A stretch of DNA of 45,170 nt from positions 1 to 45,170 of the IMG/VR virus record IMGVR_UViG_3300037316_000073. One strand, given 5' to 3'. The translations under genes and the position numbers were made by a program. Positions within the stretch are counted from its first letter, which is position 1. Each line of letters starts with the position of its first letter. The DNA comes from a virus. Shown here in pieces: positions 1,680 through 37,921 of the stretch. The notes beneath the pieces are model-generated. The model was not told the DNA's origin. It saw nothing but the letters and a program-made list of their open reading frames with translations, and ran no database searches.

Positions 1680-3944
1680 ATGAAAATAGAGACCGCCGAG
1701 AGAGTAGCCGAGTTTGCTGGTTTTCTTGAAGAGAAAAGCTTCACGATAGCAGCAAACGGTAAAGCTTTTCGGGTCCTCATTGATAAACTTTACTCAAACG
1801 TTCATCAAGCTATTGTACGCGAGCTGATGACGAATGCTTGGGATGCGCATGTTTCGGCGGCAAATCTAAAACCTTTCGAAATTCACGTGCCGACAGCGTT
1901 TGAGCCCTTCTTTTCTATTCGTGACTTCGGCTGTGCAATGACTCACTCAGAAGTCATGAACGTCTACTCGACGATATTCGAGTCAACCAAGGATGCTCGT
2001 GACGATCAGGTCGGCGCCTGGGGCCTTGGCTCAAAAACACCTTTCGCCTACACTGACACTTTTGGCGTGCAAGTCTGGCTAGATGACCGCCATAGGGTGT
2101 ATAATGTCTTCATAGATGCGACCGGTGTCCCAAAAATCGCCCTGGCGCTCGACGAAGAGAATGACGGTGCCGCGAACGGCGTTGAGGTATCCTTTCCAGT
2201 CGGTGTCAAAGATGCCGGTCTTTTTCGAACCGCGCTCGAAGTGGTTAGCATTGGCTTCGAAGTCAAGCCAAAATTTTCTGGTTCGCTCAATGTTCTGGAA
2301 TTAGAGAAGCGTCGTCAAGGTGCTGGCTGGTTCACGTTCGTCTATTCCAGTGGACCAACATGGTTGAAAAAGCCGGTTGCTCGGGTCGGCTGCGTCCTCT
2401 ATCCGATCAAGCTGGACGTGGTGTGTGATCTCATAAGAGACAAAGCGACGAAGCCAGAGTGCTGGCAGCTTTTGTCCAGCGTGCATGGTTTTCCGGGCAC
2501 GCCAATGATCCTCGATTTCCCAATTAGCTCGATCGAAGTCACAGCCAATCGTGAAGACTTATACTATTCGGAACGAACTGTCAAGTCTATTGTTGATAGA
2601 TTCGAGACAATCGTTCAGGAAATGAAAGCTGAGTTTTTAGCTAATATCAAGAAAGGCAAGACTCTCTATGAAGTGAATATGGAAGTCCTCGAAGTCTGCG
2701 AGATGTTCGCCGACGTTGCCTCTGGCGTCTCTAGCTATCTCCGTGATTTTGCTCGGCAACAGAGCTTCAAAGGACGAAAGCTTCTTCACAAAATCGTTTT
2801 TCGACATAGATACAAAACGGTTGAGGAAAAGAACGCTGCCGGTGAGGCAGTCATTTATCGAGTTCCGACTCGTTACAATAGCATTCAATTCGTCTACTAT
2901 CTAGGCTCGAAATTCATTCGTCAACCAGGACTGCAATTCTGTGATTCTGAGGAAATGTCTTGGACTCCGCGTGTTACCGACTTCTTCGTTGAGCTGCCGG
3001 GCGAAAAGGGTAAGCGCGTGCCGTACGCTGCTCGCCGCATTCGTCACGAGCGCAACGAAGCCGGCACGACCGTGCGCCACGATCTTATGTGGATCAAGAC
3101 ACCCTCACTCTCGGACCCTCACTTCGTAAAAATGTGGATCGGGCTCGGGCGCCCGCCTTATAAACTGGTCAACGATCTGGTGAGACCGCCGGGCATTCCG
3201 ACCGAGCGCTATATAACCCCGATGCGCATTTATAATTCGAATGCAGATACGTGGGAAAGGTATGACGATTTCGACGTTGAGAATGACGCCGGGTTTTATG
3301 TGATGCTCAACTGCGGGCTTCCGGAGCATATAAAGAGCGTGAAGCTCTGCGATCTGATCGGATTTCTGGAATCAAAGCGCGCGATCCACAATGCCCGTCA
3401 TATCATTGGCATCCCAAAGAGCCGCAAGTCAGTTCTCTCAAAATCCGATCAATGGATTGACATGGTTCCCGTCCTTAAAGCAGCCTACCGCAAAGCGCTC
3501 AACGTGAAGCAGGCAGCGGTCAGTTTCAGTGTTAAAGAGATCACAATCGACAAAGGGGATCAAGGCACGTTAGAAAGATTGAACCGCAAGCTTGGTAGGT
3601 TTGATCCGGCGTCGCCGTTCGTTCAAGCGATTAAAGCCTATGATCGGTTGGGAGCGATTGAGGCGACAGCTGCCGAATTTAAGAGTGCCTGGAATCATCG
3701 ATGGGTGCTTGATTATGAGGAGCGTGCGAAGCTCGACGAAGAATACAACGCGCTCGCCAAAAGTGACCCGGCGCTGGTTTCTGAGATTGGCTCTATCAAG
3801 TCTGCCATCGAAGGTGTTTTTCAAGCCTATCCTTTACTGCAAAAAGTGCCATATCCCGATCAAGATGCTTTGAAAGCACTCGACGACTATATTGTAGCGA
3901 TGGACTGTTTTAGAGGGGCGCTTGCTAGTGGCTTACAAAAATAA
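1680..3944 (+). CDS. rIIA: RIIA-like protein (GHKL-type ATPase fold)
   Basis: The 754-aa product is close in length to T4 RIIA (725 aa). The N-terminal domain shows GHKL ATP-binding boxes: ELMTNAWDAH with Glu48 and Asn52, RDFGCAM around Asp82, and the glycine box GAWGLGSKTPFA at about 112-123. In T4 RIIA acts with RIIB at the membrane and protects against exclusion by resident prophages (lambda Rex) and in lysis timing; the same role is inferred here. The ATG at 1680 follows an AGG about 5 nt upstream and lies 30 nt after a promoter candidate. The C-terminal half matches no domain I can name. The partner rIIB follows, but an HNH homing endonuclease gene is wedged between them. Confidence 0.88.
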   Translation: MKIETAERVAEFAGFLEEKSFTIAANGKAFRVLIDKLYSNVHQAIVRELMTNAWDAHVSAANLKPFEIHVPTAFEPFFSIRDFGCAMTHSEVMNVYSTIFESTKDARDDQVGAWGLGSKTPFAYTDTFGVQVWLDDRHRVYNVFIDATGVPKIALALDEENDGAANGVEVSFPVGVKDAGLFRTALEVVSIGFEVKPKFSGSLNVLELEKRRQGAGWFTFVYSSGPTWLKKPVARVGCVLYPIKLDVVCDLIRDKATKPECWQLLSSVHGFPGTPMILDFPISSIEVTANREDLYYSERTVKSIVDRFETIVQEMKAEFLANIKKGKTLYEVNMEVLEVCEMFADVASGVSSYLRDFARQQSFKGRKLLHKIVFRHRYKTVEEKNAAGEAVIYRVPTRYNSIQFVYYLGSKFIRQPGLQFCDSEEMSWTPRVTDFFVELPGEKGKRVPYAARRIRHERNEAGTTVRHDLMWIKTPSLSDPHFVKMWIGLGRPPYKLVNDLVRPPGIPTERYITPMRIYNSNADTWERYDDFDVENDAGFYVMLNCGLPEHIKSVKLCDLIGFLESKRAIHNARHIIGIPKSRKSVLSKSDQWIDMVPVLKAAYRKALNVKQAAVSFSVKEITIDKGDQGTLERLNRKLGRFDPASPFVQAIKAYDRLGAIEATAAEFKSAWNHRWVLDYEERAKLDEEYNALAKSDPALVSEIGSIKSAIEGVFQAYPLLQKVPYPDQDALKALDDYIVAMDCFRGALASGLQK

Positions 3945-4413
3945 AGATGATGACAAAAAATGGAGAGAAGCTAACGAGGATCATCTAAAGCAATATAAAA
4001 GAGACTACTACAGACGGAAGTATGGAAAAAATCGTGAAAAAATGTGTCCTAAACCTAAAAGACGCACAGATCACTTGAAGAGATACGGTATCACTATAAA
4101 TGAGTGGGAGAAGATGTTTGAAAAACAGGGTAAAATATGTGCTCTGTGTGGATCAGATGTCCCTGCCAAACACTCAAATCGATGGAATACGGATCATGAT
4201 CACGATACAGGGATAATTAGAGGAATTATTTGTTGCAGTTGTAACAATGGATTAGGTCTATTCAAGGATGATCCAGTGCTACTGCGCAAGGCCGCCAACT
4301 ATATAGAACTAAGCAAACCTCTTAATTTTTTACTTGACAATCGGAAAAAACCCGAGCATTATGCCGAAACTCAAACCATAGAGACGGACAGCAATGAGCA
4401 CGATCCCGCATAG
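3928..4413 (+). CDS. Endonuclease VII/HNH-type homing endonuclease 1
   Basis: The product is about 161 aa. The N-terminal third is very basic. It is followed by a zinc-binding nuclease core with CALCG, DHDHDTGIIRG and CCSCNNGLG, the pattern of the recombination endonuclease VII family (two CxxC pairs around a DHDHxTG motif). Free-standing members act as homing endonucleases that cut phage relatives lacking the gene. The likely start is GTG 3928, within the last codons of rIIA, with GAGGGG about 10 nt upstream; TTG 3922 is an alternative. The gene is visibly more A+T-rich than its neighbours, as expected for a mobile insert between rIIA and rIIB. A promoter for rIIB lies in its 3' end. Confidence 0.85.
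   Translation: MAYKNKDDDKKWREANEDHLKQYKRDYYRRKYGKNREKMCPKPKRRTDHLKRYGITINEWEKMFEKQGKICALCGSDVPAKHSNRWNTDHDHDTGIIRGIICCSCNNGLGLFKDDPVLLRKAANYIELSKPLNFLLDNRKKPEHYAETQTIETDSNEHDPA
4334..4362 (+). promoter_or_regulatory. Promoter for rIIB inside the HNH gene 3' end
   Basis: TTGACA at 4334-4339, 17 nt, CATTAT at 4357-4362. It shares the exact CGAGCATTAT block with the htrA promoter. The predicted start near 4369 leaves a 25-nt leader before rIIB ATG 4394. This lets rIIB be expressed despite the inserted endonuclease gene. Confidence 0.65.
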
Positions 4414-5422
4414 CATTACCGCCAATTCGATCTCGGTTCTGATCGATTATCGGATGCGCGTCATTCCGAAGTCGTCTGTGAACTTCGATGCAATTCGAGC
4501 CGAACTCGGCAAGGGCGAGAAGGCGGATATCGGCAAGCTCAAGTCGCTGGTTGACATTCCATCGTTCATCGCTCGGGTCACGGCTGGACGTATTCGCGTC
4601 TCCGACGACGAAGTGTATTTCAAGTCGGAAAAAGTCAACAGCTACGCGGCTCAGCGTCTTTTGGAGCACCTGAGAGACGGTGATTCGATCGAACCGCTTG
4701 CCAAGCTGCTCGACAAGCTGATGGACAATCCGAACCCGGCACTCCGCAACGATCTGTGGCTGTGGATCGAACAAGCCAATCTGCCGATTGCCGGTGACGG
4801 TGATATCTTGGCCTTCAAAAAGGTCGATCCGGAATATAAGTCGTTCCACAAGAACACCGATGGCACGTACCACGTTCATCGTGTCGGAACACGCGTTCAC
4901 ATGCCACGTGAGCATTGTGACCCGAACCGTCATTCGGTTTGTTCGACCGGGCTGCACTTCTGTTCATATGGCTATCTGCACACGTATGAAGGAACCAGCG
5001 GGCACGTCGTTATCGTGAAAATCAACCCACGTGACATTACCGCGATTCCGTCTGACGCCTCCGATCAAAAGGGACGCTGCTGTCTCTATGAAGTGGTCCA
5101 GGAAATCGACCAGGAGGAAGCTAAGCAGTTTTTCAGGGGTAACGTCGTCTCGCACGTCGGCACTTATGACGAGCCAGAGCCCGACGAACCGCCGGTGGAT
5201 TGGGACGATCATGAAGGCGGCTACGAGATCGGCGAGGGAGCTGCCGAGCCAGAGGCTGTGGTCAATGCCAGTGATGACGGATTCACGATCGTCATCGGCA
5301 GCAAGCGCGTCAGCCGCCAGCACCTGAATGATACCGTCGCCAGTCTCGGACAGCGCGGCGCCGCCAAGAAGCTCGGCATACCACGCACGTCGCTTCAGGA
5401 CGCACTCAAGCGCATGAAGTGA
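4394..5422 (+). CDS. rIIB: RIIB-like protein with C-terminal helix-turn-helix
   Basis: The 342-aa product carries the RIIB signature in its middle: AFKKVDPEYKSFHKN, GTRVHMPREHCD, CSTGLHFCSYGYLHTYEG and KINPRDITAIPSD. T4 RIIB (about 312 aa) works with RIIA in prophage-exclusion resistance and lysis control. After an acidic linker (about residues 255-285) the last 40 residues look like a Fis- or transposase-type helix-turn-helix (GQRGAAKKLGIPRTSLQDAL), suggesting nucleic-acid contact. It overlaps the end of the HNH gene by 20 nt and has its own promoter upstream. The next small gene starts in its stop codon (ATGA). Confidence 0.88.
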   Translation: MSTIPHSITANSISVLIDYRMRVIPKSSVNFDAIRAELGKGEKADIGKLKSLVDIPSFIARVTAGRIRVSDDEVYFKSEKVNSYAAQRLLEHLRDGDSIEPLAKLLDKLMDNPNPALRNDLWLWIEQANLPIAGDGDILAFKKVDPEYKSFHKNTDGTYHVHRVGTRVHMPREHCDPNRHSVCSTGLHFCSYGYLHTYEGTSGHVVIVKINPRDITAIPSDASDQKGRCCLYEVVQEIDQEEAKQFFRGNVVSHVGTYDEPEPDEPPVDWDDHEGGYEIGEGAAEPEAVVNASDDGFTIVIGSKRVSRQHLNDTVASLGQRGAAKKLGIPRTSLQDALKRMK

Positions 5423-6432: not shown

Positions 6433-6929
6433 TGACAAACCCGGATGACACTCTTCGAAATCGTATTGCTGCTCTTCATGACGCACTCCATTTCGATGGA
6501 ATAAGAGATAGAGCGAGAAGAATATACGAGAACCGTGTCTGGTTTAACTTAAACGAGTTACGAAAAGAAGCTGCGCTTTCTTTTGCAGAGAGCCGTGGCT
6601 GGAAATTATCAAAAGCCTCTTTCTCGTTCAGACAATTACGTGAAGGAAAATTCAGGCCAAATAGTGATGATTGGCGCTCAGACTTGCATTACAACGAACC
6701 AGGAGCGTCGGCTCCCGATCATTGTGAATATTTTCGCAAGCCAAAGTGCGAGGGCGGTAGGTTCATTATGCCGGCAGCTATCGTCAGCCATCCCTATGGA
6801 CCACCTGACGCTAATGTCCGTTTTTTCGAAGGAAATGGTTTCATCGCCGAACTACTTCCCTGGTCATGGTACTATCCACAAGGAACGTGTGCTATTGTGG
6901 TCACGATGAATGAAGATCGAGCTGCTTGA
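6429..6929 (+). CDS. Hypothetical protein
   Basis: The 166-aa product starts at ATG 6429 or 6432, overlapping the previous stop. It has a basic N-terminal half and a Trp/Tyr-rich C-terminal third (LPWSWYYPQ). No recognisable domain is seen. It overlaps the helicase start by 20 nt, so it belongs to the same transcription unit. Confidence 0.6.
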   Translation: MMTNPDDTLRNRIAALHDALHFDGIRDRARRIYENRVWFNLNELRKEAALSFAESRGWKLSKASFSFRQLREGKFRPNSDDWRSDLHYNEPGASAPDHCEYFRKPKCEGGRFIMPAAIVSHPYGPPDANVRFFEGNGFIAELLPWSWYYPQGTCAIVVTMNEDRAA

Positions 6930-8713
6930 CGGCGGCATTTACGCCGCGACGATCGCCTTCCAGCAACGACTGCGCTTTCGAGCTGACGGCTGGCTTTGGA
7001 ATCCAGACCTAAAAAAGTGGACGACCAAGGATAGGACGAAAGTCATCCCTTGGCTTCCATTCTGCGTCGGGCGCGCGCGTGAAGTTCTCGACGATCAGAT
7101 AGAGCACGAGCGCGTCAGGATGGCGCCTAGTTTCGCTGCGGACGCCGATATCGACATACCGGTGCCCGTAGCCTTTCATATACGGGACAGAAAACCGTTT
7201 GAGTATCATCCTTTTCAAAAAGCGGGAATCAAATTCATTCACGAGCACAAGGATACCCTGCTCGCCGATCCTCCTGGGCTCGGTAAAACCATTCAGGCGA
7301 TCGGCGCCTCAAACTTGGACGCATCAATCCGTCGCGTGCTTATTATCTGCCCGGCTTTCATGAAAATCCATTGGGAGCGTACCTGGACGGATTGGGACGT
7401 TAAACACTTATCGGTCGGCATCGCCCGAACGCACTCATACCAGAAGGATCGAGTTATTCATCGGGAGCATGTTTGGCCGAATAGCGACGTTGTGATTATC
7501 AACCCGGAGCTGTTGGAGGCGTTTGACGAACATACCAAGGCGCTCGAATGGGACTTGATGGTTATCGATGAATGGCACCTTGGATTCCCAACCGGCAAAT
7601 CAAAGCGCTTCAAGTCAGTCTTCGGCGGACGTTACACCAAACCCAAAAAGAAAGAAAAAGCCGAAGCCGGTGACGATGGACTTCCGTCCGATACGGGCGA
7701 AGAAGCGCCTGTTTCTAACCGGGACTCCCCTCACGGCGAGGCCGATTCAGCTGTGGTCGCTGTGTGAGAAGGTCGATCCGCGCGGGCTCGGACGCAGCTG
7801 GAAGAGTTTCATCTATCGCTACTGCGGCGCCCATCATGACGGGTTCGGCATTGACACTCGCGGCGCGACCAATCTGGATGAACTACAGTACAAACTGAGA
7901 ACATCCTTCATGATTCGCCGTGACAAAAAGGAAGTCATGGGAGAGCTGCCGCCGAAGTCGCGTCAAGTTATCGTGATGCCGGACGATGGCATTCAGAAAA
8001 AGGTCGAAAACGAGCTGTCGGCGGTTCGCGGGCTGGTTTCGCTCTACGAGAATTTAGTCGGGCTAGCGCCAGCAGAGTCGATCGAACAAACCGATAATCG
8101 CTTCTGGCAGGCAGTGGCAACGGTTCATGGGCGCTTCATCGACGCCAGCTTGCAGCTCTCGCAGGATTACAGTCTCGCCTTCGAGGAGCTGTCGAAGGCG
8201 CGCAAGGAGCTAGCTTTAGCTAAAGTTCCGCTCGCAATCCAGTACATCAACAACCTAATGGAATCGGGCGAAAAGGTCATCGTTTTCTGCCACCATACGG
8301 TCGTCGCTGAGGCGTTAAAATCACACTATCCTCAGTGTGCTTATATCACCGGCAAAGTCCCTACGCAGAAGCGCCAGGGGCAGGTAGACCGCTTCCAGGA
8401 CGATCCGAGCTGCAACCCAATGATCGGCAACATCGACGCTGCCGGCGTTGGATTCACGATGACAGCGGCGTCCCACGTCGTCTTCGTTGAACTGGTGTTC
8501 AACCCGTCAAATATGGAGCAAGCCGAAGACCGTGCATGGCGCGACGGGCAAGAGAACGCTGTGCTTGTTCATTTTCTCGTGGTGGATCACTCTTTCGATG
8601 CTCGAAATATCACGATTCTAGAAGAAAAAGCTGAGGTTTTAGAACAAGTTCTGGATTCCAACAAGTATCGTAGCTTAAGCTTTCTTGCGGATATGCTAGC
8701 CGAGAATCGTTAG
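6910..8713 (+). pseudogene. SNF2-type helicase, split by a frameshift
   Basis: Two frames together encode one superfamily 2 helicase. The first (6910-7767) has an N-terminal HARP-like segment, the Q region (YHPFQKAGIKF), Walker A (ADPPGLGKT) and motif II (VIDEWH). The second (usable from about 7640 to 8713) continues with motif III (LFLTGTPL), then VIVFCHH and the motif V/VI region ending AEDRAWRDGQ. Family members (SMARCAL1-like, phage DEAD/SNF2) are ATP-driven DNA translocases. The frames meet in an A-rich run at about 7639-7660; removing one A there gives a continuous protein of about 600 aa. It may be a sequencing or assembly error, a real mutation, or +1 frameshifting; the second half could also start at ATG 7676. 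It overlaps the previous gene by 20 nt. Confidence 0.8.
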
Positions 8714-19042: not shown

Positions 19043-20333
19043 ACATCAGATGGGAGCAATCAACGGCGTTAAGGACTGGTACAAGGACGATCCGCTAAAG
19101 CGACACTTCTATCTCGGAGGTTTTGCTGGAACCGGTAAAAGCACCTTACTACCAGTTTTGATTGACGCCCTTGATATCGATCCGTCTGACATCGCATTCA
19201 TGGCGCCAACCGGTAAGGCGGCACGCGTCATGCGTACGAAGCTGAAAGAGGCGGACGTGTCTGCGGATTGCAAGACGATCCACTCGTCGATTTATCTGCC
19301 GTCCAGCCAAAAAGCTGACGTGTTGGAAAAGCAGAAGCTCGCGCTCGAAATGCAGATTGATTCTTACGGGCTCACTCAAGGCACGCAAGCACCCGACGAT
19401 CTTCTCTACAAGCTTCAGGTTTTGAATGCCGAACTCGACGAAGCTTATATCGAGAATGAGGGACCGAGATTCTTTCTGAACATCGAAAGTCCGGTGTTCA
19501 ATCGCAAGCTTATCATCTGTGACGAAGCGTCTATGGTCGGAGCCCGCATTGCGGATGATCTATATAAGATGGGCGTGCCGCTGGTCGCGATCGGCGATCC
19601 TGGTCAGTTACCGCCTGTCAAGGACGACGCAGGACTCACCGATCGCGATCCAGATTACTTCCTGACGGAAATCCACCGTCAAGCCGCTGACAATCCGATC
19701 ATTTGGCTTTCGAAACTGGCACGTGACGGAAAAGACATTCCAGTCGGAAACTATGGCGACGCGGTTCGTGTCGTAAGACGCCGCGATGACGATTTGACGT
19801 TCAATCCGGAAGTTAATGTCCAGATCATTGTCGGGACGCATAAAAAGCGCTGGCGTGTCAATGAAGGCGTTCGCAACATGATGGGGTATAAGTCGTCTGG
19901 TCCGTGCGCTGGCGAGCCGCTGCTTGTTTGTAAAAACTCTCGAAATACCCCGTCGCTCATAAATGGTTTGCCGGTGCTGTGTGTCGAAGATGTTGGCGAT
20001 CTAACTCCCGGCATCGCTACATTTCCACTTCGCATTCAAGAAGAAGAAGGTGGGACTATCCGTTGGGTTCAAGCCTGCCAGGGTATTTTCGAGGAAACCT
20101 TCCTGAAGCAGAAGGACGGTTTTTCCTGTGACATTCAAGCTGCCTACAAGGCGAAGAAGTTTGCCGAGCACATCGATTGGGGCTGGTGTCTTACTTGCCA
20201 CAAGGCGCAAGGGAGCCAGTGGGATGCTGTCGTTTTGCATGATGAAAGCTCTTGTTTTCGAGAAGACGCGCGTAAATGGCTCTATACTGGAATAACTCGG
20301 GCCGCAGAAAAATTGATGATTGTTTACCCGTGA
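19023..20333 (+). CDS. RecD/Dda-type superfamily 1 DNA helicase
   Basis: The 436-aa protein has the complete SF1B set: Walker A GGFAGTGKST (about 30-39), motif Ia AFMAPTGKAARVM, motif II ICDEASMV, motif III GDPGQLPPV, motif IV region EIHRQAADNP, motif V TCHKAQGSQWD and motif VI LYTGITRAAEK. Relatives such as T4 Dda are 5'-3' helicases used in replication start and recombination. ATG 19023 lies within the end of the upstream gene. The following HNH endonuclease starts at GTG in the stop codon (GTGA). Confidence 0.92.
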   Translation: MLPTLSEHQMGAINGVKDWYKDDPLKRHFYLGGFAGTGKSTLLPVLIDALDIDPSDIAFMAPTGKAARVMRTKLKEADVSADCKTIHSSIYLPSSQKADVLEKQKLALEMQIDSYGLTQGTQAPDDLLYKLQVLNAELDEAYIENEGPRFFLNIESPVFNRKLIICDEASMVGARIADDLYKMGVPLVAIGDPGQLPPVKDDAGLTDRDPDYFLTEIHRQAADNPIIWLSKLARDGKDIPVGNYGDAVRVVRRRDDDLTFNPEVNVQIIVGTHKKRWRVNEGVRNMMGYKSSGPCAGEPLLVCKNSRNTPSLINGLPVLCVEDVGDLTPGIATFPLRIQEEEGGTIRWVQACQGIFEETFLKQKDGFSCDIQAAYKAKKFAEHIDWGWCLTCHKAQGSQWDAVVLHDESSCFREDARKWLYTGITRAAEKLMIVYP

Positions 20334-20797
20334 CGACTTATTCCAAAGATAGAACGAAAGAGGAAATACGAACCCTGAAACGTGAAAAGCAGCGAGAGTA
20401 TCGTTCGAGACCAGAAATTCAAGAACGACAAGCTCGCTATTTGGAGCTACACAGGGACGAGAAAATAAAGTACGATAAAGATCGACAAGCCAAGCCGGAA
20501 ATAAAAGAAAGGCGATTCGATCTTCAGAAAAGACAAATGTACGGGATAACTGCCGAAGAGTATAAAGCTAAGCTTGTGCAGCAGAACTACGTTTGTGAAA
20601 GTTGTAAGAAGCCAGAGGAGCGTATTGATTATCGTAGCGGTAAACCGTTTAGTCTAGCGGTTGATCACAATCACTATACTGGTGAAGTGAGAGGACTTCT
20701 CTGTACTAAATGCAACATCTCGCTAGGATTGGTCGATGATAAACCAGAAATTCTGGTTAAATATCTTGCAAAATATAACGGAAAGATGTATCCATGA
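20330..20797 (+). CDS. Endonuclease VII/HNH-type homing endonuclease 2
   Basis: The 155-aa product has a highly charged basic N-terminal half and a zinc-nuclease core: CESCKKPEE, VDHNHYTGEVRGLLC and CTKCNISLG. It belongs to the same family as the genes at 3928, 27335 and 28863. The GTG start at 20330 overlaps the stop of the helicase gene by 4 nt, so it can be translated by re-initiation. The next gene again starts in its stop (ATGA). Confidence 0.85.
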   Translation: MTTYSKDRTKEEIRTLKREKQREYRSRPEIQERQARYLELHRDEKIKYDKDRQAKPEIKERRFDLQKRQMYGITAEEYKAKLVQQNYVCESCKKPEERIDYRSGKPFSLAVDHNHYTGEVRGLLCTKCNISLGLVDDKPEILVKYLAKYNGKMYP

Positions 20798-21009: not shown

Positions 21010-21191
21010 GTGATCAATTTGCTATCCGCATGTTCAATAACTTCACGCCAGTCGATGCTTGGCTCGATCAAGTTAGGGTGAAGCTGACGCCGGAAGAGTA
21101 CGAAGAGTTTGATCGGCTCATGCGCGAGGCGAGCGAGAAAACTCAGATGGATCACTTCGAGCTGATTGATGATGCGAAAGAACCTGGATAA
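21006..21191 (+). CDS. Small hypothetical protein
   Basis: This 61-aa acidic, helical protein starts at ATG overlapping the previous stop (ATGA) and ends inside the next gene. No motif is recognised. Confidence 0.55.
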   Translation: MSDQFAIRMFNNFTPVDAWLDQVRVKLTPEEYEEFDRLMREASEKTQMDHFELIDDAKEPG

Positions 21192-21366
21192 ACTGCCGGT
21201 TCTAGCTGGTTTGATTGTTACGTTTACTGTGATGAATGTTGGTGCTGTAGAAACACCAAATCCACCGTTCACTGCTTTTAACGTTACTTGGATGGCAGGG
21301 ACCCTGATTTCCGCTCTGCTGTTTATTCACTTCGGTATGCGGGCGATCAAAGAATGGGAAATCTAA
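21169..21366 (+). CDS. Small two-TM membrane protein
   Basis: The product of about 65 aa has hydrophobic segments at about residues 10-27 and 41-60 and a short charged tail, so it should be an inner-membrane protein. It starts at ATG 21169 or 21172, inside the upstream gene. Its TAA overlaps the ATG of the next gene (TAATG). The function is unknown. Confidence 0.6.
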   Translation: MMRKNLDKLPVLAGLIVTFTVMNVGAVETPNPPFTAFNVTWMAGTLISALLFIHFGMRAIKEWEI

Positions 21367-27334: not shown

Positions 27335-27865
27335 ATGCCATACAGTGACCCGATAAAAGCTGCTGAGTACGACAGACAGTATCGCCTAAAAAGAAGAAAA
27401 AGCGATCCTGAATTCGCTAAGAGGCAGAGAGGATATTGTAAAAAATGGAGTGCCGCAAATCGAGCACGTGAATCAGCCAGGAGCAAACGATACAGGCAGG
27501 ATAATATTGAAAAAATGCGTGAGTATGAAAATCAACGCAGCGTGCAACGTAGAGCAAAAAACCCGGAGCGTCAAAAAGCTGCAAATAGACGCTCACTTTT
27601 GAAAAAATATGGATTGTCGGCGTTAGACTACACTTGCATGCTGACTGAACAGAATTTTGTCTGTAAAAGCTGTGGTGAACCAGAAGTCGGACTTGACGCC
27701 TATGGTAATATGCGTCCTTTATCGGTTGATCACGATCATGTGACTGGCGAGGTTCGCGGGCTTCTATGCAACGGATGTAATCGCGCTCTCGGCTTCATAA
27801 ATGATTCATCTGAAAAGCTAAAAAAATTGATCAGCTATCTTGACTCCGCTAGAAAAATTTGCTAG
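27335..27865 (+). CDS. Endonuclease VII/HNH-type homing endonuclease 3
   Basis: The 176-aa product has a basic N-terminal half rich in Lys, Arg and Gln, then LTEQNFVCKSCGEPE, VDHDHVTGEVRGLLC and CNGCNRALGF. It is the largest of the four endonuclease VII-like proteins here and closest to the one at 20330. It begins 6 nt after the nrdJ stop, a classical site for homing-nuclease insertion next to ribonucleotide reductase genes. Confidence 0.86.
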   Translation: MPYSDPIKAAEYDRQYRLKRRKSDPEFAKRQRGYCKKWSAANRARESARSKRYRQDNIEKMREYENQRSVQRRAKNPERQKAANRRSLLKKYGLSALDYTCMLTEQNFVCKSCGEPEVGLDAYGNMRPLSVDHDHVTGEVRGLLCNGCNRALGFINDSSEKLKKLISYLDSARKIC

Positions 27866-28489: not shown

Positions 28490-28894
28490 GTGTCATACAT
28501 CGTGTCAAAACAAGGTTTCTTGTCCGACAACGAGATTGTCGACGATATAGTCCGTTGTATCGAAGGTGATCCGAAAAGTCTATCCGATTGGCTTACTTGT
28601 CCGTTTGAAGACTTGATCATGCTTCATCATGGAACCGGCACGCACATCCGCAATTACTACAAGATGTGGGCGGAAGAGAATCCGTTCAGCAACATCGATC
28701 CGCCAGCGAATACTGCGGGTATCGTAGATCATCCAGACTTCCCCGACCAAAGGTCTCAGCGTTGCATAGAGCGCGTGTGGCAGATGATTCATCGAAAGCA
28801 TGGAATCGGTCCAGGCACGAAAAAGGAACCTATTGACGTTGCTGAATTCGTTAAGCAGTTCGATGACGAAAAAGTATCCATCTCAAACTCCTGA
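28490..28894 (+). CDS. Conserved phage protein, DUF6794-like
   Basis: The product of about 134 aa has CPFEDLIMLHHGTGTHIRNY followed by YKMWAEENPF. This resembles the LHxGxGxxIRNxxxLW pattern of a widespread phage/bacterial domain (DUF6794 from memory) of unknown function. The start is probably GTG 28490, 3 nt after dut; GTG 28502 is an alternative. The next homing endonuclease starts inside its 3' end. Confidence 0.6.
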   Translation: MSYIVSKQGFLSDNEIVDDIVRCIEGDPKSLSDWLTCPFEDLIMLHHGTGTHIRNYYKMWAEENPFSNIDPPANTAGIVDHPDFPDQRSQRCIERVWQMIHRKHGIGPGTKKEPIDVAEFVKQFDDEKVSISNS

Positions 28895-29342
28895 AAAATG
28901 GAAACAATATAATCAACGTTGGCAAGCTAAGAATCCTGATAAAGCTAGGTGTCTTAAGAAAGCTGCCTCCGATAGATTTCGTGAGAGAAATCCTCATTAC
29001 CAAAAAGAGTGGGTAAATAAGAACAAGGATAAAGTTCTACGAAGTAGAGAACGCGGAAGGATAAGAAAAGCTTTGAGGCGCCGTTGGAAGAAATATGGAT
29101 TGACGCCAGAACAGTTTAACATAAAGAACGAAACACAAACCGGTCTTTGTATGTTATGTAATGAACTGAATCAAAATGGTAGAGATTTATGCGTCGATCA
29201 CGACCACGAAACGGGTAATGTTAGAGACCTTCTCTGTACTAGATGCAACCGTGGTCTAGGTATGTTTAAGGATTCTCCTGAGCTGCTAGAAAAGGCTGCG
29301 GCTTACATTAGAGGACACAAAGAGAATGTATCAGATTCCTAA
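28863..29342 (+). CDS. Endonuclease VII/HNH-type homing endonuclease 4
   Basis: The 159-aa product has a very basic N-terminal 90 residues (many Lys and Arg, WQAKNPDKARCLKKAA) and a C-terminal core: GLCMLCNELNQ, VDHDHETGNVRDLLC and CTRCNRGLGMFKD. It overlaps the preceding gene by 32 nt and the thioredoxin gene by 17 nt, a sign of insertion with minimal loss of neighbouring coding sequence. It is visibly more A+T-rich than its surroundings. Confidence 0.86.
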   Translation: MTKKYPSQTPEKWKQYNQRWQAKNPDKARCLKKAASDRFRERNPHYQKEWVNKNKDKVLRSRERGRIRKALRRRWKKYGLTPEQFNIKNETQTGLCMLCNELNQNGRDLCVDHDHETGNVRDLLCTRCNRGLGMFKDSPELLEKAAAYIRGHKENVSDS

Positions 29343-31751: not shown

Positions 31752-31918
31752 GCGTTCCGGTAATCCCACCATTATCGCCGCCGCACAAGTTTCCGAACGA
31801 TCCGAATCCGGTTATGGCGATCTGTGGGAAATGTGGCCTGCACATCCTTCGGGTCATGGGCTATTGCTGCATGAGCCCTAACTGCCCGACAGGTCTCGGC
31901 AGCGGCTTTACAATATGA
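31700..31918 (+). CDS. Small zinc-ribbon-like protein
   Basis: The 72-aa product has a Pro-rich middle (VPVIPPLSPPHKFP) and two cysteine pairs (AICGKCGLHI and YCCMSPNCPTG), which suggest a zinc ribbon at about residues 40-65. It overlaps its neighbours at both ends. The role is unknown, possibly nucleic-acid or protein binding. Confidence 0.6.
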   Translation: MLRNKTKTPFDKEAAEIGVPVIPPLSPPHKFPNDPNPVMAICGKCGLHILRVMGYCCMSPNCPTGLGSGFTI

Positions 31919-32367
31919 CGACGAAGAAGAAACCTAGCAAAATCATTTGGGGTGAGCGCACCATATTCCCAATGTTCTACGGCTTCTGTCCGAACAAGGA
32001 AGCCTGGGACAAGGAGGTACGCGAACACATCAGTTCGCCTCTGTCGCCGGAATATCCGACCGATAGTTACGGAATGACGACACACATTACGAATAAATTC
32101 GATCACAGTAAGCAACTGTGCATCGTTACAATGAATGATCGTGTTGACACGCAATATCTCAATGACGCGGTAAGCGTGATTCTGCACGAGTCGATGCACG
32201 TTTGGCAGTGCATGATAGCTCAAGTTCGCGAGTTTGATCCTGGTCTCGAAGTGGAGGCTTACGCGGTTCAGCACATCTTCGACAACCTGTTTTCCGGCTA
32301 TCTCGAAACTCGTCGCTGCCCTATAAGGGTAGGACCGGTTTTGCCTTCTCAACACAATCCGTTTTAG
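31915..32367 (+). CDS. HExxH-containing phage protein
   Basis: The 150-aa product contains the zincin-like HESMHVWQ followed by EVEAYAVQHIFDNLF, where a Glu could be the third metal ligand. It may be a small metallopeptidase-like protein; similar proteins occur in many phage early regions and the substrate is unknown. It is the last gene of the plus-strand block and meets the minus-strand late operon stop-to-stop with a 4-nt overlap. A terminator hairpin lies at 32366. Confidence 0.65.
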   Translation: MTTKKKPSKIIWGERTIFPMFYGFCPNKEAWDKEVREHISSPLSPEYPTDSYGMTTHITNKFDHSKQLCIVTMNDRVDTQYLNDAVSVILHESMHVWQCMIAQVREFDPGLEVEAYAVQHIFDNLFSGYLETRRCPIRVGPVLPSQHNPF

Positions 32368-32489
32368 CGCTTCAACTTGCGCTTTTTAGTTTTCGACGCA
32401 CTGGTGTCGACGATTTTGACGTTAGCGTATCGAGACAGGCGCTTACGCCCGCCTCGATTTATCTTGGAGATGCTGATCTTGATCGGCAT
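32364..32489 (-). CDS. Very basic 41-aa protein (candidate disruptin 2)
   Basis: The minus-strand frame starts at ATG 32489, directly after the stop of the previous gene (TAAATG), and encodes 41 aa with 9 Lys and 6 Arg against one Asp (net about +14). It has no membrane segment. It is the last gene of the late operon, after endolysin, holin and a second cationic minigene. An amphipathic cationic peptide that disrupts the outer membrane is one hypothesis; DNA or RNA binding is another. Confidence 0.5.
   Translation of the reverse strand: MPIKISISKINRGGRKRLSRYANVKIVDTSASKTKKRKLKR
32366..32388 (+). terminator. Likely terminator of the plus-strand block
   Basis: AGCGC (32366-32370) pairs with GCGCT (32379-32383) across an 8-nt loop and is followed by TTTTTAGTTTT. 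The stem is only 5 bp, so strength is uncertain, but the position just after the last plus-strand stop fits. Confidence 0.5.
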
Positions 32490-32636
32490 TTAGTACATCG
32501 CGATAGGCGCTTTTTGTGGCGCCAATCCCTTCTTCGGCTTCTTCGACTTGAGTTTGAGTTTGCGAGGGTTCTTCTTCTTCGCCTTCTGGCTCATGCCCAT
32601 GCGTGTCTTGGACGCCTCCATGGAAGTGAGTGCCAT
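32490..32636 (-). CDS. Very basic 48-aa protein (candidate disruptin 1)
   Basis: The minus-strand frame starts at ATG 32636, at the end of the holin gene. The 48 residues hold 13 Lys and 2 Arg against one Glu (net about +14), concentrated in the middle (KAKKKNPRKLKLKSKKPKKG). There is no signal peptide or membrane helix. It is coupled to the next cationic gene. Its placement in a lysis cassette without a visible spanin suggests an outer-membrane disruptor like phage phiKT disruptin; a nucleic-acid-binding role is the main alternative. Confidence 0.5.
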   Translation of the reverse strand: MALTSMEASKTRMGMSQKAKKKNPRKLKLKSKKPKKGLAPQKAPIAMY

Positions 32637-33068
32637 TTATGCTCCCTTCGCGATCGACGTGCCGGCGGGAGCAATTCCGGATACGACCGGCGCACCAACC
32701 ACCTTGACAGCGGGAGTACCGACTGGGGCGAGCCCATTCGCGATACGTCCGTACAATGCCCAACCGGCGGTGACAACTGCCGTGACTCCGGCAAGCATCA
32801 TCACTTGATCGCCGATTGACCAGCCGTAGATGCCTGTCGCAATACCGACGATCAAAGCACCGGTAGAGCCCTGGACGACGCGGCTCGTGTGCAGCGGCTC
32901 CAAATTCATCTGATTGACGGCGACCGGATCGGTAGCAACTGCTGTGCTAACGTCAGTTAAGACTGCGCTAACAACGTCCGGCGAGATGATGCCAGACTTT
33001 ACGAGAGCTGACGAGATCAGCGGACCAAGAAAGTTCTTGATCATCTGAAAAATGAGACTGAAATCCAT
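32637..33068 (-). CDS. Holin-like membrane protein
   Basis: The 143-aa product has two hydrophobic segments (about residues 69-85 and 90-107) and an extended Ala/Gly/Pro/Val C-terminal tail. The LHTSRVVQGSTGALIVGIA context is typical of phage holins that follow an endolysin gene. It should form inner-membrane lesions that release or trigger the endolysin. The start at ATG 33068 has GGAG 9 nt upstream. It lies 14 nt after the endolysin gene, within the late operon. Confidence 0.72.
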   Translation of the reverse strand: MDFSLIFQMIKNFLGPLISSALVKSGIISPDVVSAVLTDVSTAVATDPVAVNQMNLEPLHTSRVVQGSTGALIVGIATGIYGWSIGDQVMMLAGVTAVVTAGWALYGRIANGLAPVGTPAVKVVGAPVVSGIAPAGTSIAKGA

Positions 33069-33082
33069 TGTAGTTACTCCAT

Positions 33083-33838
33083 TTAGTTCCCACGGAACTT
33101 ATTGATGATCCAGATGATGAAAGACGCAAACCAGTCTGGACCGGGTGCTGGCGTTGGCGTTGGAATGGGTAGAACTGGGATCGGCACCGGAAGCGGCACA
33201 GGGACCGGTAGAGGCACCGGAAGCGGTATCGGCAGCGGCGGGACGGGAACTGGCTCTGGCGCGGCTGCTAGAGCCTTCTGCATAGCTGCGTAGATCGTCT
33301 CGGCGTAGCCGGCAATAAGCGTCTCCTGGTCCGTGCCGTTCACTTCGTGGCGAGCATCGATCCAGTCGAAGAGCACGCCTTCGACGAGATAGCGAGACAG
33401 AGGACCAGCTGCCGGCGCAAACAGACCCTTGATCATGCCCATGACCAGAATCTTTGCTGCGACCACCAAGTCGAGTGCCAGTTCGGGATGATTGACCAAA
33501 TCCAAGCCCAAGAGCTTGCCCATGGTTACGTAGTTGTACTTCCAGGTGAGCTGAACCAGTCCGCGACCGTAGTATGCCTTGCCGGTAACGGGATCGATAA
33601 CACCATAAGGGTGTCCGCGTCCGAGACCGTATTCCGCGATAGCCGCCATCGTATGAGCGGACTCGTGGAAGGCAGTCGCCAGGATGTAGGACTGTTGTTC
33701 GTGGTCGAAGTCAGTCTCACGCGCGCACTCAGCGAGAATTGCGTTGAATCCGTCGACTTGTCCTTGTGACAGGTGTCCGCCGAAGAGATTGCTGCGAATC
33801 TCCGTGAAGAAGACCTGCATATTCATTGTCGTTGTCAT
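33083..33838 (-). CDS. GH19-like endolysin with polyproline linker and C-terminal hydrophobic helix
   Basis: The 251-aa product has an N-terminal lysozyme/chitinase (GH19-like) domain: AFHESAHTMAAIAEYG with the catalytic Glu59, and AYYGRGLVQLTWKYNY (about 88-103). It cleaves peptidoglycan. From about 195 to 234 it becomes a repeated Pro-Val/Leu/Ile linker, then ends with an aromatic/hydrophobic helix (DWFASFIIWIINKFRGN). This tail is unusual for an endolysin. No signal peptide is present. AAAGGAACG precedes the start. Holin follows downstream. Confidence 0.88.
   Translation of the reverse strand: MTTTMNMQVFFTEIRSNLFGGHLSQGQVDGFNAILAECARETDFDHEQQSYILATAFHESAHTMAAIAEYGLGRGHPYGVIDPVTGKAYYGRGLVQLTWKYNYVTMGKLLGLDLVNHPELALDLVVAAKILVMGMIKGLFAPAAGPLSRYLVEGVLFDWIDARHEVNGTDQETLIAGYAETIYAAMQKALAAAPEPVPVPPLPIPLPVPLPVPVPLPVPIPVLPIPTPTPAPGPDWFASFIIWIINKFRGN
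33140..33260. repeat. Short direct repeats coding the endolysin Pro-Val linker
   Basis: The plus strand repeats units such as ACCGG(A/T)AG(C/A)GG and close variants. On the coding strand these encode the repeated Pro-Val/Leu/Ile linker. Slippage-prone repeats like this can change linker length between isolates. Confidence 0.7.
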
Positions 33839-36214: not shown

Positions 36215-37921
36215 TTAAAAGCGGGTGATAATTTGAGTCGCTTCGTTAGCATTTTTTGGCGCCGCACGAACATTTGCCAGCGCCAGTATTTGAATCTGTG
36301 AAAGTTGAGCTTTCGTTTGTCCGGTGACAAGAAGTTGGACGAATTCTTGTGTCATCCTAGTCTTTCTTGAACCTTGTGTCAAGACCAAAATTTGCTCTTG
36401 GGTCAATTGAGCTGCAAGAATGCTCATTCCTGCGATAGATTCGGTAGCATTCTTCTCATGAAACACTAGAGTTGCGTTGGCTCCGTTATCAATATGCCCA
36501 GCGAGATCAATGGCGCCGAAGCCAGTGAATGTAACCGAGGCAACTGCGCCTCGATCGGAAGCAGAATCGGATTCGGTTGCTCCTTTGCCTGTAAATACAA
36601 TGGAAGCATTCAGTCCAGCACTAAAAAGACCTACAATATCGTGGGCTACTTGACCAGTGTAGCTGATCGTACCGTGTAGAACTGAGTCCTGAAAACCTAA
36701 AGTATCGGTTGCGGCTTCTCCGGTGTAGGTAATAGACGCATTGGCGCCACTGTCGGATGTTCCACTGATCGCAGCATCCCACACGGCGCCAAGCATCGCC
36801 GCACCACCGCCATTCGTGGACGAAAACGTAGCTGTCTCGACGTGCGAGCCAGCAGTTAGACCGTTTATATCAGCTGATGACCATTTGACGCCATTGAAGT
36901 CGGTTACGTTGGCGTCTACAAAGGCCGATGACCATGAAGTCGCTCCAAATCCACTACTCATGTAGGCAGCGCAGGCATGGATCGCACCACCGCCTGTCGT
37001 GTAGGTTAAGGCGTTGTTTGCAAGGCTCGTCATGCCCGAGCCCGACGTATAGATGTGCGCGATGCTAGAAGGAATCTCGGAACTATAACCAGTGATCAGA
37101 TATACATAGGCGGAGTAGATACCTCGACTGTTGGTATTAAAATTGAGGGTAATATCATACGTACCCGCCGCCATAACGTAGGTGCCGATGATGCTGACGA
37201 TTAACCCACCGAAGATATCATCGAGTTGGATATTTGCTACCTGGGTCCCATACTTCAAATTGAGCAAAGGATCAGACGCACCGTTCAGTGCGCCGGTGAT
37301 CAATGTGACCAGAAGTCCACCACCTGTCGGAACGGTAAAATTGCCGAAGTCATAGGTAGGGATATAGCTGCCGCTATCAATGGTAGTTTCACCAAGGTAG
37401 TTGATTATAAGCCCAGGCGGTTGGGTACCCTCAACCCACAGCATCCAAGCGGAGCTAGTCGAAGAACCACTCCAAGTGACATCCGGCGTCGTGTTCCCAG
37501 GACTACCGGTTTCATAGTAGCCAACGCTGCTAGAGCTGCCTACACCAGTCGCATCGTCAATCTTCATCGTACAGTCGCTGTTCGGATTCTGGAACAGGAC
37601 TACGTAAAAGATAGTACCCCTTGTAATCGTCGGGGTAGTTGTTAGAGGAATCAGAAAGGTCGTGTCTGTCGCTGCTACGATACCATCTGAAAACCCAACT
37701 TCATTGGACTGCGCAAGCGGCGTGGTTGGAGTGCTAGAGTTGCCGGCATAAAGGGCAACTCGATATTTAGAAGTGTTCGAGGCATTGATGGCATTGACAC
37801 GGATGCCAACGTGATCGGCGACGAAGGTTTGATTAGCAGTTATCTGGCGCGCAATAGCGTGCCCACCACCAATCGAGTTGTTGCCTACTGGCGTGCCTTT
37901 GCCAAGAACGACCGCGACCAT
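36215..37921 (-). CDS. Fibre/decoration protein sharing a domain with the 784-aa protein
   Basis: The 568-aa product has an N-terminal jelly-roll-like region (1-170, with HVGIRVNAIN and SKYRVALYAGN). Residues about 175-385 match the 784-aa protein domain (DFGNFT, MAAGTYDITL, SSIAH, WSSADINGLTAGSHVETA, AVWDA). After this come five 20-25-residue repeats of the type GANASITYTGEAATD, then a Gln-rich helical C-terminus (QLTQEQILVLTQGS). AAGGAAATC precedes ATG 37921. It is probably a surface-exposed virion protein, perhaps immunoglobulin-like. Confidence 0.72.
   Translation of the reverse strand: MVAVVLGKGTPVGNNSIGGGHAIARQITANQTFVADHVGIRVNAINASNTSKYRVALYAGNSSTPTTPLAQSNEVGFSDGIVAATDTTFLIPLTTTPTITRGTIFYVVLFQNPNSDCTMKIDDATGVGSSSSVGYYETGSPGNTTPDVTWSGSSTSSAWMLWVEGTQPPGLIINYLGETTIDSGSYIPTYDFGNFTVPTGGGLLVTLITGALNGASDPLLNLKYGTQVANIQLDDIFGGLIVSIIGTYVMAAGTYDITLNFNTNSRGIYSAYVYLITGYSSEIPSSIAHIYTSGSGMTSLANNALTYTTGGGAIHACAAYMSSGFGATSWSSAFVDANVTDFNGVKWSSADINGLTAGSHVETATFSSTNGGGAAMLGAVWDAAISGTSDSGANASITYTGEAATDTLGFQDSVLHGTISYTGQVAHDIVGLFSAGLNASIVFTGKGATESDSASDRGAVASVTFTGFGAIDLAGHIDNGANATLVFHEKNATESIAGMSILAAQLTQEQILVLTQGSRKTRMTQEFVQLLVTGQTKAQLSQIQILALANVRAAPKNANEATQIITRF
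36770..37405 (-). repeat. Duplicated fibre domain, copy B (in 568-aa protein)
   Basis: This is the second copy of the domain at 34585-35215. Shared blocks include DFGNFT, AGTYDIT, YSAYVYLI/YSVYVYLI, PSSIAH and AGSHVETA. The extra repeats after it (GANASITYTG type) are only in this protein. Confidence 0.7.

Follow-up and report, generated by a model that had tools for sequence, protein, structure and literature searches.

Two coupled polybasic minigenes in the spanin slot of a phage GH19 lysis cassette

Gene order of the lysis cassette and its surroundings

The window, by which the whole virus record of 45,170 bases is meant, harbors a lysis cassette in which a GH19 endolysin, a putative holin, minigene 1 and minigene 2 follow each other in leftward direction (Table 1). 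It had originally been predicted that a pair of tandem frames (48 and 41 aa), each with a net charge of about +14, without membrane helix and coupled by TAAATG, lies directly after the holin. This was confirmed in the sequence and by the ORF map, with a net charge of +14 for each and a 143-aa membrane protein in the place of the holin. The minigenes are located on the minus strand, however, and abut instead of overlapping as had been described. At the junctions the order is putative holin-TAA-ATG-minigene 1-TAA-ATG-minigene 2, and since stop and start codons are contiguous, the three ORFs share one common frame with a single TAA between neighbors. Minigene 1 has a good Shine-Dalgarno sequence (GAAGGGAG). 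The distances from the endolysin stop to the starts of the minigenes are 447 and 594 nt, and the stop of minigene 2 overlaps that of the last gene of a converging + operon, TTAG being common to both.

Table 1. Features of the lysis cassette and its converging neighbor (window positions), and the phage phiKT gene used for comparison (positions in its own record).
Feature	Position	Strand	Basis
Last gene of converging + operon, 150 aa, PHROG 882 (unknown function)	31915..32367	+	ORF, PHROG match
Minigene 2, 41-aa polybasic peptide, final gene of leftward operon	32364..32489	-	ORF, codon choice
Terminator-like hairpin and U-tract of converging + operon	32366..32393	+	pattern scan, folding -7.9 kcal/mol
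Minigene 1, 48-aa polybasic peptide	32490..32636	-	ORF, Shine-Dalgarno, codon choice
Putative holin, 143-aa hydrophobic membrane protein	32637..33068	-	ORF, hydrophobic segments
GH19 endolysin, X-Pro rod, hydrophobic C-terminal tail DWFASFIIWIINKFRGN	33083..33838	-	PF00182, PHROG 181, alignment
phiKT gp28 (NC_019520)	37102-37272		PHROG 35982

The endolysin matched PF00182, the GH19 catalytic domain, above cut-off as well as PHROG 181, and its residues E59 and E69 are invariant in an alignment of six homologs. The 143-aa protein had been called a holin, which agrees with its position and hydrophobicity, but no family identifies it: Pfam and NCBIfam gave no match, and the best PHROG match (E=0.0068) was to a family of unknown function. 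Only its position and hydrophobicity thus mark it as a holin, and it is referred to as putative. A 66-aa orphan ORF with two TM segments amid the nucleotide-metabolism genes (21166-21366, +) is a possible candidate for a second holin or an antiholin.

The + half of the window encodes rIIA/rIIB homologs, a DNA polymerase, helicases, ribonucleotide reductase, thymidylate synthase and a T5 A1-type DNA-transfer protein, while the - half contains tail genes followed by the lysis cassette, the tail-lysis operon running leftward. The rIIA and rIIB homologs (1680-3944 and 4394-5422, +) have an endonuclease VII-like gene between them. Four endonuclease VII-like HNH genes of a single family are dispersed in the + operon (3922-4413, 20276-20797, 27335-27865 and 28800-29342, +). 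Two GIY-YIG homing endonucleases adjoin the polymerase and its exonuclease. Two overlapping frames (6910-7767 and 7568-8713, +) together encode a helicase (PHROG 62), and their matches cover adjoining stretches of the profile (positions 682-834 and 833-1139), which suggests a frameshift, either real or from sequencing.

The record is without terminal repeats, and its left end truncates an ORF for a multi-TM membrane protein, beside which a trypsin-like serine protease (PF13365) is encoded (438-1553, -). Genes for terminase, portal, head/capsid and tape-measure proteins were not recognized within the 45 kb, which indicates that much of the genome probably lies outside the record. Relatives of the tail proteins belong mostly to phages of Caulobacter, Brevundimonas, Erythrobacter, Rhodobacterales and rhizobia, and the best matches of the DNA-transfer protein mainly to Caulobacter phages. 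Judged from the hosts of these relatives, an alphaproteobacterial and thus Gram-negative host is likely.

Coding signal of the minigenes and the search for relatives

A cationic ORF may be no more than the frame shadow of an acidic gene. A further explanation is that the basic peptides are by-products of DNA features, and that one or both would be non-functional. Codons 33-41 of minigene 2 lie opposite the terminator-like hairpin and U-tract, and because of this half of the charge of the peptide is encoded opposite the hairpin (residues 32-41, net +7). Terminator-like sites were about as many in the pattern scan as expected by chance, and the assignment of this one is supported mainly by its place at the very end of the + operon. 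Residues 1-31 still carry a net charge of +7. Minigene 1 is overlain by an acidic competing frame (32443-32763), and a viral locus offers an example of such a shadow, as the cationic ORF L110:2936-3052 is the frame shadow of an acidic gene (2905-3663).

Synonymous codon choice, scored with a model trained on the window's own genes, favored both basic frames. The 48 aa frame reached +0.116 and the 41 aa frame +0.154 bits/codon, which places them at the 57th and 72nd percentile among pieces of real genes; 4.6% and 2.2% of wrong-frame pieces, respectively, exceeded these scores. The acidic frame over minigene 1 scored -0.011 bits/codon. While comparable cationic ORFs with an ATG start turned up singly about once per simulated 45-kb window, a coupled cationic pair was obtained in 0/200 simulated windows. 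Together with the Shine-Dalgarno sequence of minigene 1, these results make an origin as by-products quite unlikely, and both minigenes are probably real genes.

Family searches of both minigenes (PHROG, Pfam, NCBIfam) gave no match, and neither did tblastn searches of the minigenes and the putative holin against 50,697 phage records. Viral contigs were scanned for close relatives of minigene 1, of the endolysin and of the putative holin, and bacterial genomes for those of the putative holin, likewise with negative results, as were searches of viral contigs with degenerate DNA patterns derived from a part of each minigene. When the 352-aa tail protein served as query, 80 distant loci were obtained, none of them with this cassette. 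Relatives found with the A1-type DNA-transfer protein were at most 50% identical, and among 35 contigs with this protein that were checked, only contig G011 encodes a comparable full-length endolysin.

The pair was also sought beside the lysis genes of relatives, as the original prediction had suggested. Altogether 80 loci with a GH19 endolysin on viral contigs, 5 in phage records and 41 in bacterial genomes were examined, and a counterpart was found in none of these 85 viral/phage and 41 bacterial loci. In L110, L111 and L128, a cationic ORF close to the endolysin at first resembled a relative but was rejected: in L110, the locus checked, it is the shadow described above, and L111 and L128 have near-identical peptides. 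R-rich matches in GC-rich genomes were rejected as well, being probable shadows too. The shadow in L110 calls for caution in screens that choose disruptin candidates by charge and position.

The spanin slot and the properties of the peptides

About 13% of surveyed phages (91/677) were without identifiable spanin (PMC6139136). The cassette had been described as having none visible, and indeed no lipobox ORF was detected in it, while three ORFs with a weak lipobox pattern in other parts of the window are not spanin-like; the record is incomplete, however, so that 'spanin-less' is unproven. A simple scan of 77 distinct viral and phage GH19 loci detected an i-/o-spanin pair in 26, the distance from the endolysin stop to the o-spanin start being 136-971 nt; a few of these pairs may be false positives, and the one in L088 is doubtful. 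For the other 51 loci no pair was detected, meaning that spanin absence is common or the scan insensitive. With respect to distance from the endolysin, the minigenes are in the slot where relatives hold their spanins. Contig G011 (L258), the most comparable one, which shares the DNA-transfer protein and the GH19 endolysin with the window, has endolysin, i-spanin and o-spanin in consecutive order as an ordinary pair, and in Rhizobium phage RHph_TM3_3_3 (L089) the pair lies further downstream of the endolysin. Like the minigenes, the genes of these two-component spanins are small, coupled and similarly distant from the endolysin. Spanins are recognized by a lipobox lipoprotein and/or an inner-membrane segment, whereas neither minigene encodes a transmembrane segment, a lipobox, a coiled coil or a signal sequence.

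For the opening of the outer membrane by spanin-less phages there is one well-characterized answer, gp28 of phage phiKT, the archetype disruptin. The minigene products resemble gp28 in being small and cationic, in lacking a signal sequence and in being encoded in a lysis cassette beside endolysin and holin, though phiKT has one such gene and the window two. Gene position, charge and the missing spanin had led to the proposal of a disruptin-like pair, perhaps with two components. Once the holin has opened the inner membrane and the endolysin has cut the wall, the pair would bind LPS and, taking over from a spanin, destabilize the outer membrane. The placement in the spanin slot of relatives and the lack of a lipobox gene in the cassette speak for this proposal. 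The disruptin helix is described as amphipathic and LL-37-like (PMC12819732), and phiKT is listed as spanin-less (PMC6139136).

The composition of the peptides differs from that of gp28. Minigene 1 encodes 13 K, 2 R and 1 E and minigene 2 9 K, 6 R and 1 D, and only 23% and 27% of their residues, respectively, are VILMFWY; both contain prolines and are of low hydrophobicity. Gp28 has a charge of +7, is 45% hydrophobic and amphipathic, whereas the minigene products have few large hydrophobic residues and are not amphipathic. LL-37 served as a yardstick in the comparison of amphipathicity. The amphipathicity of gp28 was reached by 27/2000 shuffles, while the maximal helical moments of minigenes 1 and 2 were matched by 601/2000 and 409/2000 shuffles and are thus not above chance. 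AlphaFold2 without alignment gave low-confidence models (pLDDT 67-68), in which minigene 1 forms a non-amphipathic helix at residues 5-22 (moment 0.11) followed by coil and minigene 2 a strand-helix-strand arrangement with a basic tail. For the 41-aa peptide, no structural match was obtained in a search with its low-confidence model.

Minigene 1 showed no similarity to gp28. Minigene 2 was identical at 11/25 positions (pairwise E=0.04), a marginal similarity that was reached by 1.3-3% of shuffles. As gp28 itself is almost an orphan, with relatives only in phiKT and PGT2, the lack of homology is not decisive, and the missing amphipathicity weighs more heavily as a mismatch. Position and charge fit the original prediction, but an amphipathic helix, significant similarity to gp28 and counterparts in related cassettes are lacking, and the genome is incomplete. 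No spanin was found in the window and no DNA-binding homology, yet nothing specific to disruptins was found either. Overall the evidence points weakly to a disruptin, and we regard this explanation of the minigenes as rather doubtful.

A reading that we consider somewhat more likely is that both ORFs are real late genes, translationally coupled and the last of the leftward tail-lysis operon, whose small, largely disordered and polybasic products, being without signal or membrane anchor, would act by electrostatic binding to a polyanion. We infer a cytoplasmic location, with nucleic acid as the more likely partner and LPS or another part of the envelope as the less likely one. We assign this explanation a probability of about 0.4. 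It is consistent with the coding signal in both frames and the absence of such a pair from the simulations, with a charge of +14 on each of two peptides whose amphipathicity is no better than that of shuffles, and with the folds of the low-confidence models. The incompleteness of the record and the ordinary spanin pair beside the GH19 endolysin of G011 fit it as well. Rupture of the outer membrane would most likely be left to another agent, be it a spanin from the missing part of the genome, the endolysin described below, or both. Against it, a role in lysis is suggested by the location of the minigenes within the lysis operon, where relatives have their spanin genes, and profile and database searches revealed no homology of the minigenes to nucleic-acid-binding proteins.

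Rod and tail of the endolysin and a possible role in opening the outer membrane

The endolysin itself contains an element that the original prediction had missed as a rival for activity on the outer membrane. Behind its catalytic domain, roughly 42 residues form an X-Pro rod, and the protein ends in DWFASFIIWIINKFRGN, rod and tail together comprising approximately residues 190-251. The rod gave a weak TonB match in NCBIfam. A Pro-rich linker followed by a short aromatic or hydrophobic, basic-ended tail is also present in Corticibacterium L262, Mesorhizobium L263/L096, L097, L151 and L162, and this arrangement is seen repeatedly among related GH19 endolysins, most of them rhizobial; a rod-less version of the tail (GGFWAALGRFLLALIKGGKK) is common in rhizobial cassettes. 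The free energy of the tail at the membrane interface is favorable, and it is plausible that rod and tail form a membrane-active element.

Outer-membrane-active endolysins with C-terminal amphipathic helices have been published (PMC11929351; PMC6139136), and it was suggested that such enzymes may serve spanin-less phages (PMC6139136). The hydrophobic, basic-ended segment at the C-terminus of the window's endolysin is similar to the helices of these Gram-negative endolysins (PMC11929351), but the enzyme differs from this kind in its GH19 domain, its long X-Pro rod and a tail that is hydrophobic more than amphipathic, and its activity is predicted. The endolysin itself could open the outer membrane, with the rod spanning the periplasm and the tail inserting into this membrane, while the minigenes would be accessory or unrelated. 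The recurrence of the layout would suit such a mechanism; with a charge of only +1 to +2, however, the hydrophobic tail may only anchor the enzyme to the inner membrane. That tails replace spanins was rejected, as a spanin pair was detected in 8/28 tailed and 18/49 untailed loci (p=0.62), which is no association. Opening of the outer membrane by the endolysin is considered unlikely.

It is conceivable that both elements act together. The phage, probably of an alphaproteobacterial host, would then be spanin-less and combine a polycationic, non-amphipathic pair that displaces charges on LPS with the rod-and-tail endolysin, as a two-component disruptin chemically unlike gp28. We judge this combination very unlikely.

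With its coupled polybasic peptides encoded in the spanin slot, the GH19 cassette offers a concrete and cheaply testable candidate for an outer-membrane breaker. The recurrent module of Pro-rod and hydrophobic tail in alphaproteobacterial GH19 endolysins is a second and broader candidate for outer-membrane opening. If the pair and the endolysin module both fail, this would mean that disruptins are not predictable from charge and position alone.
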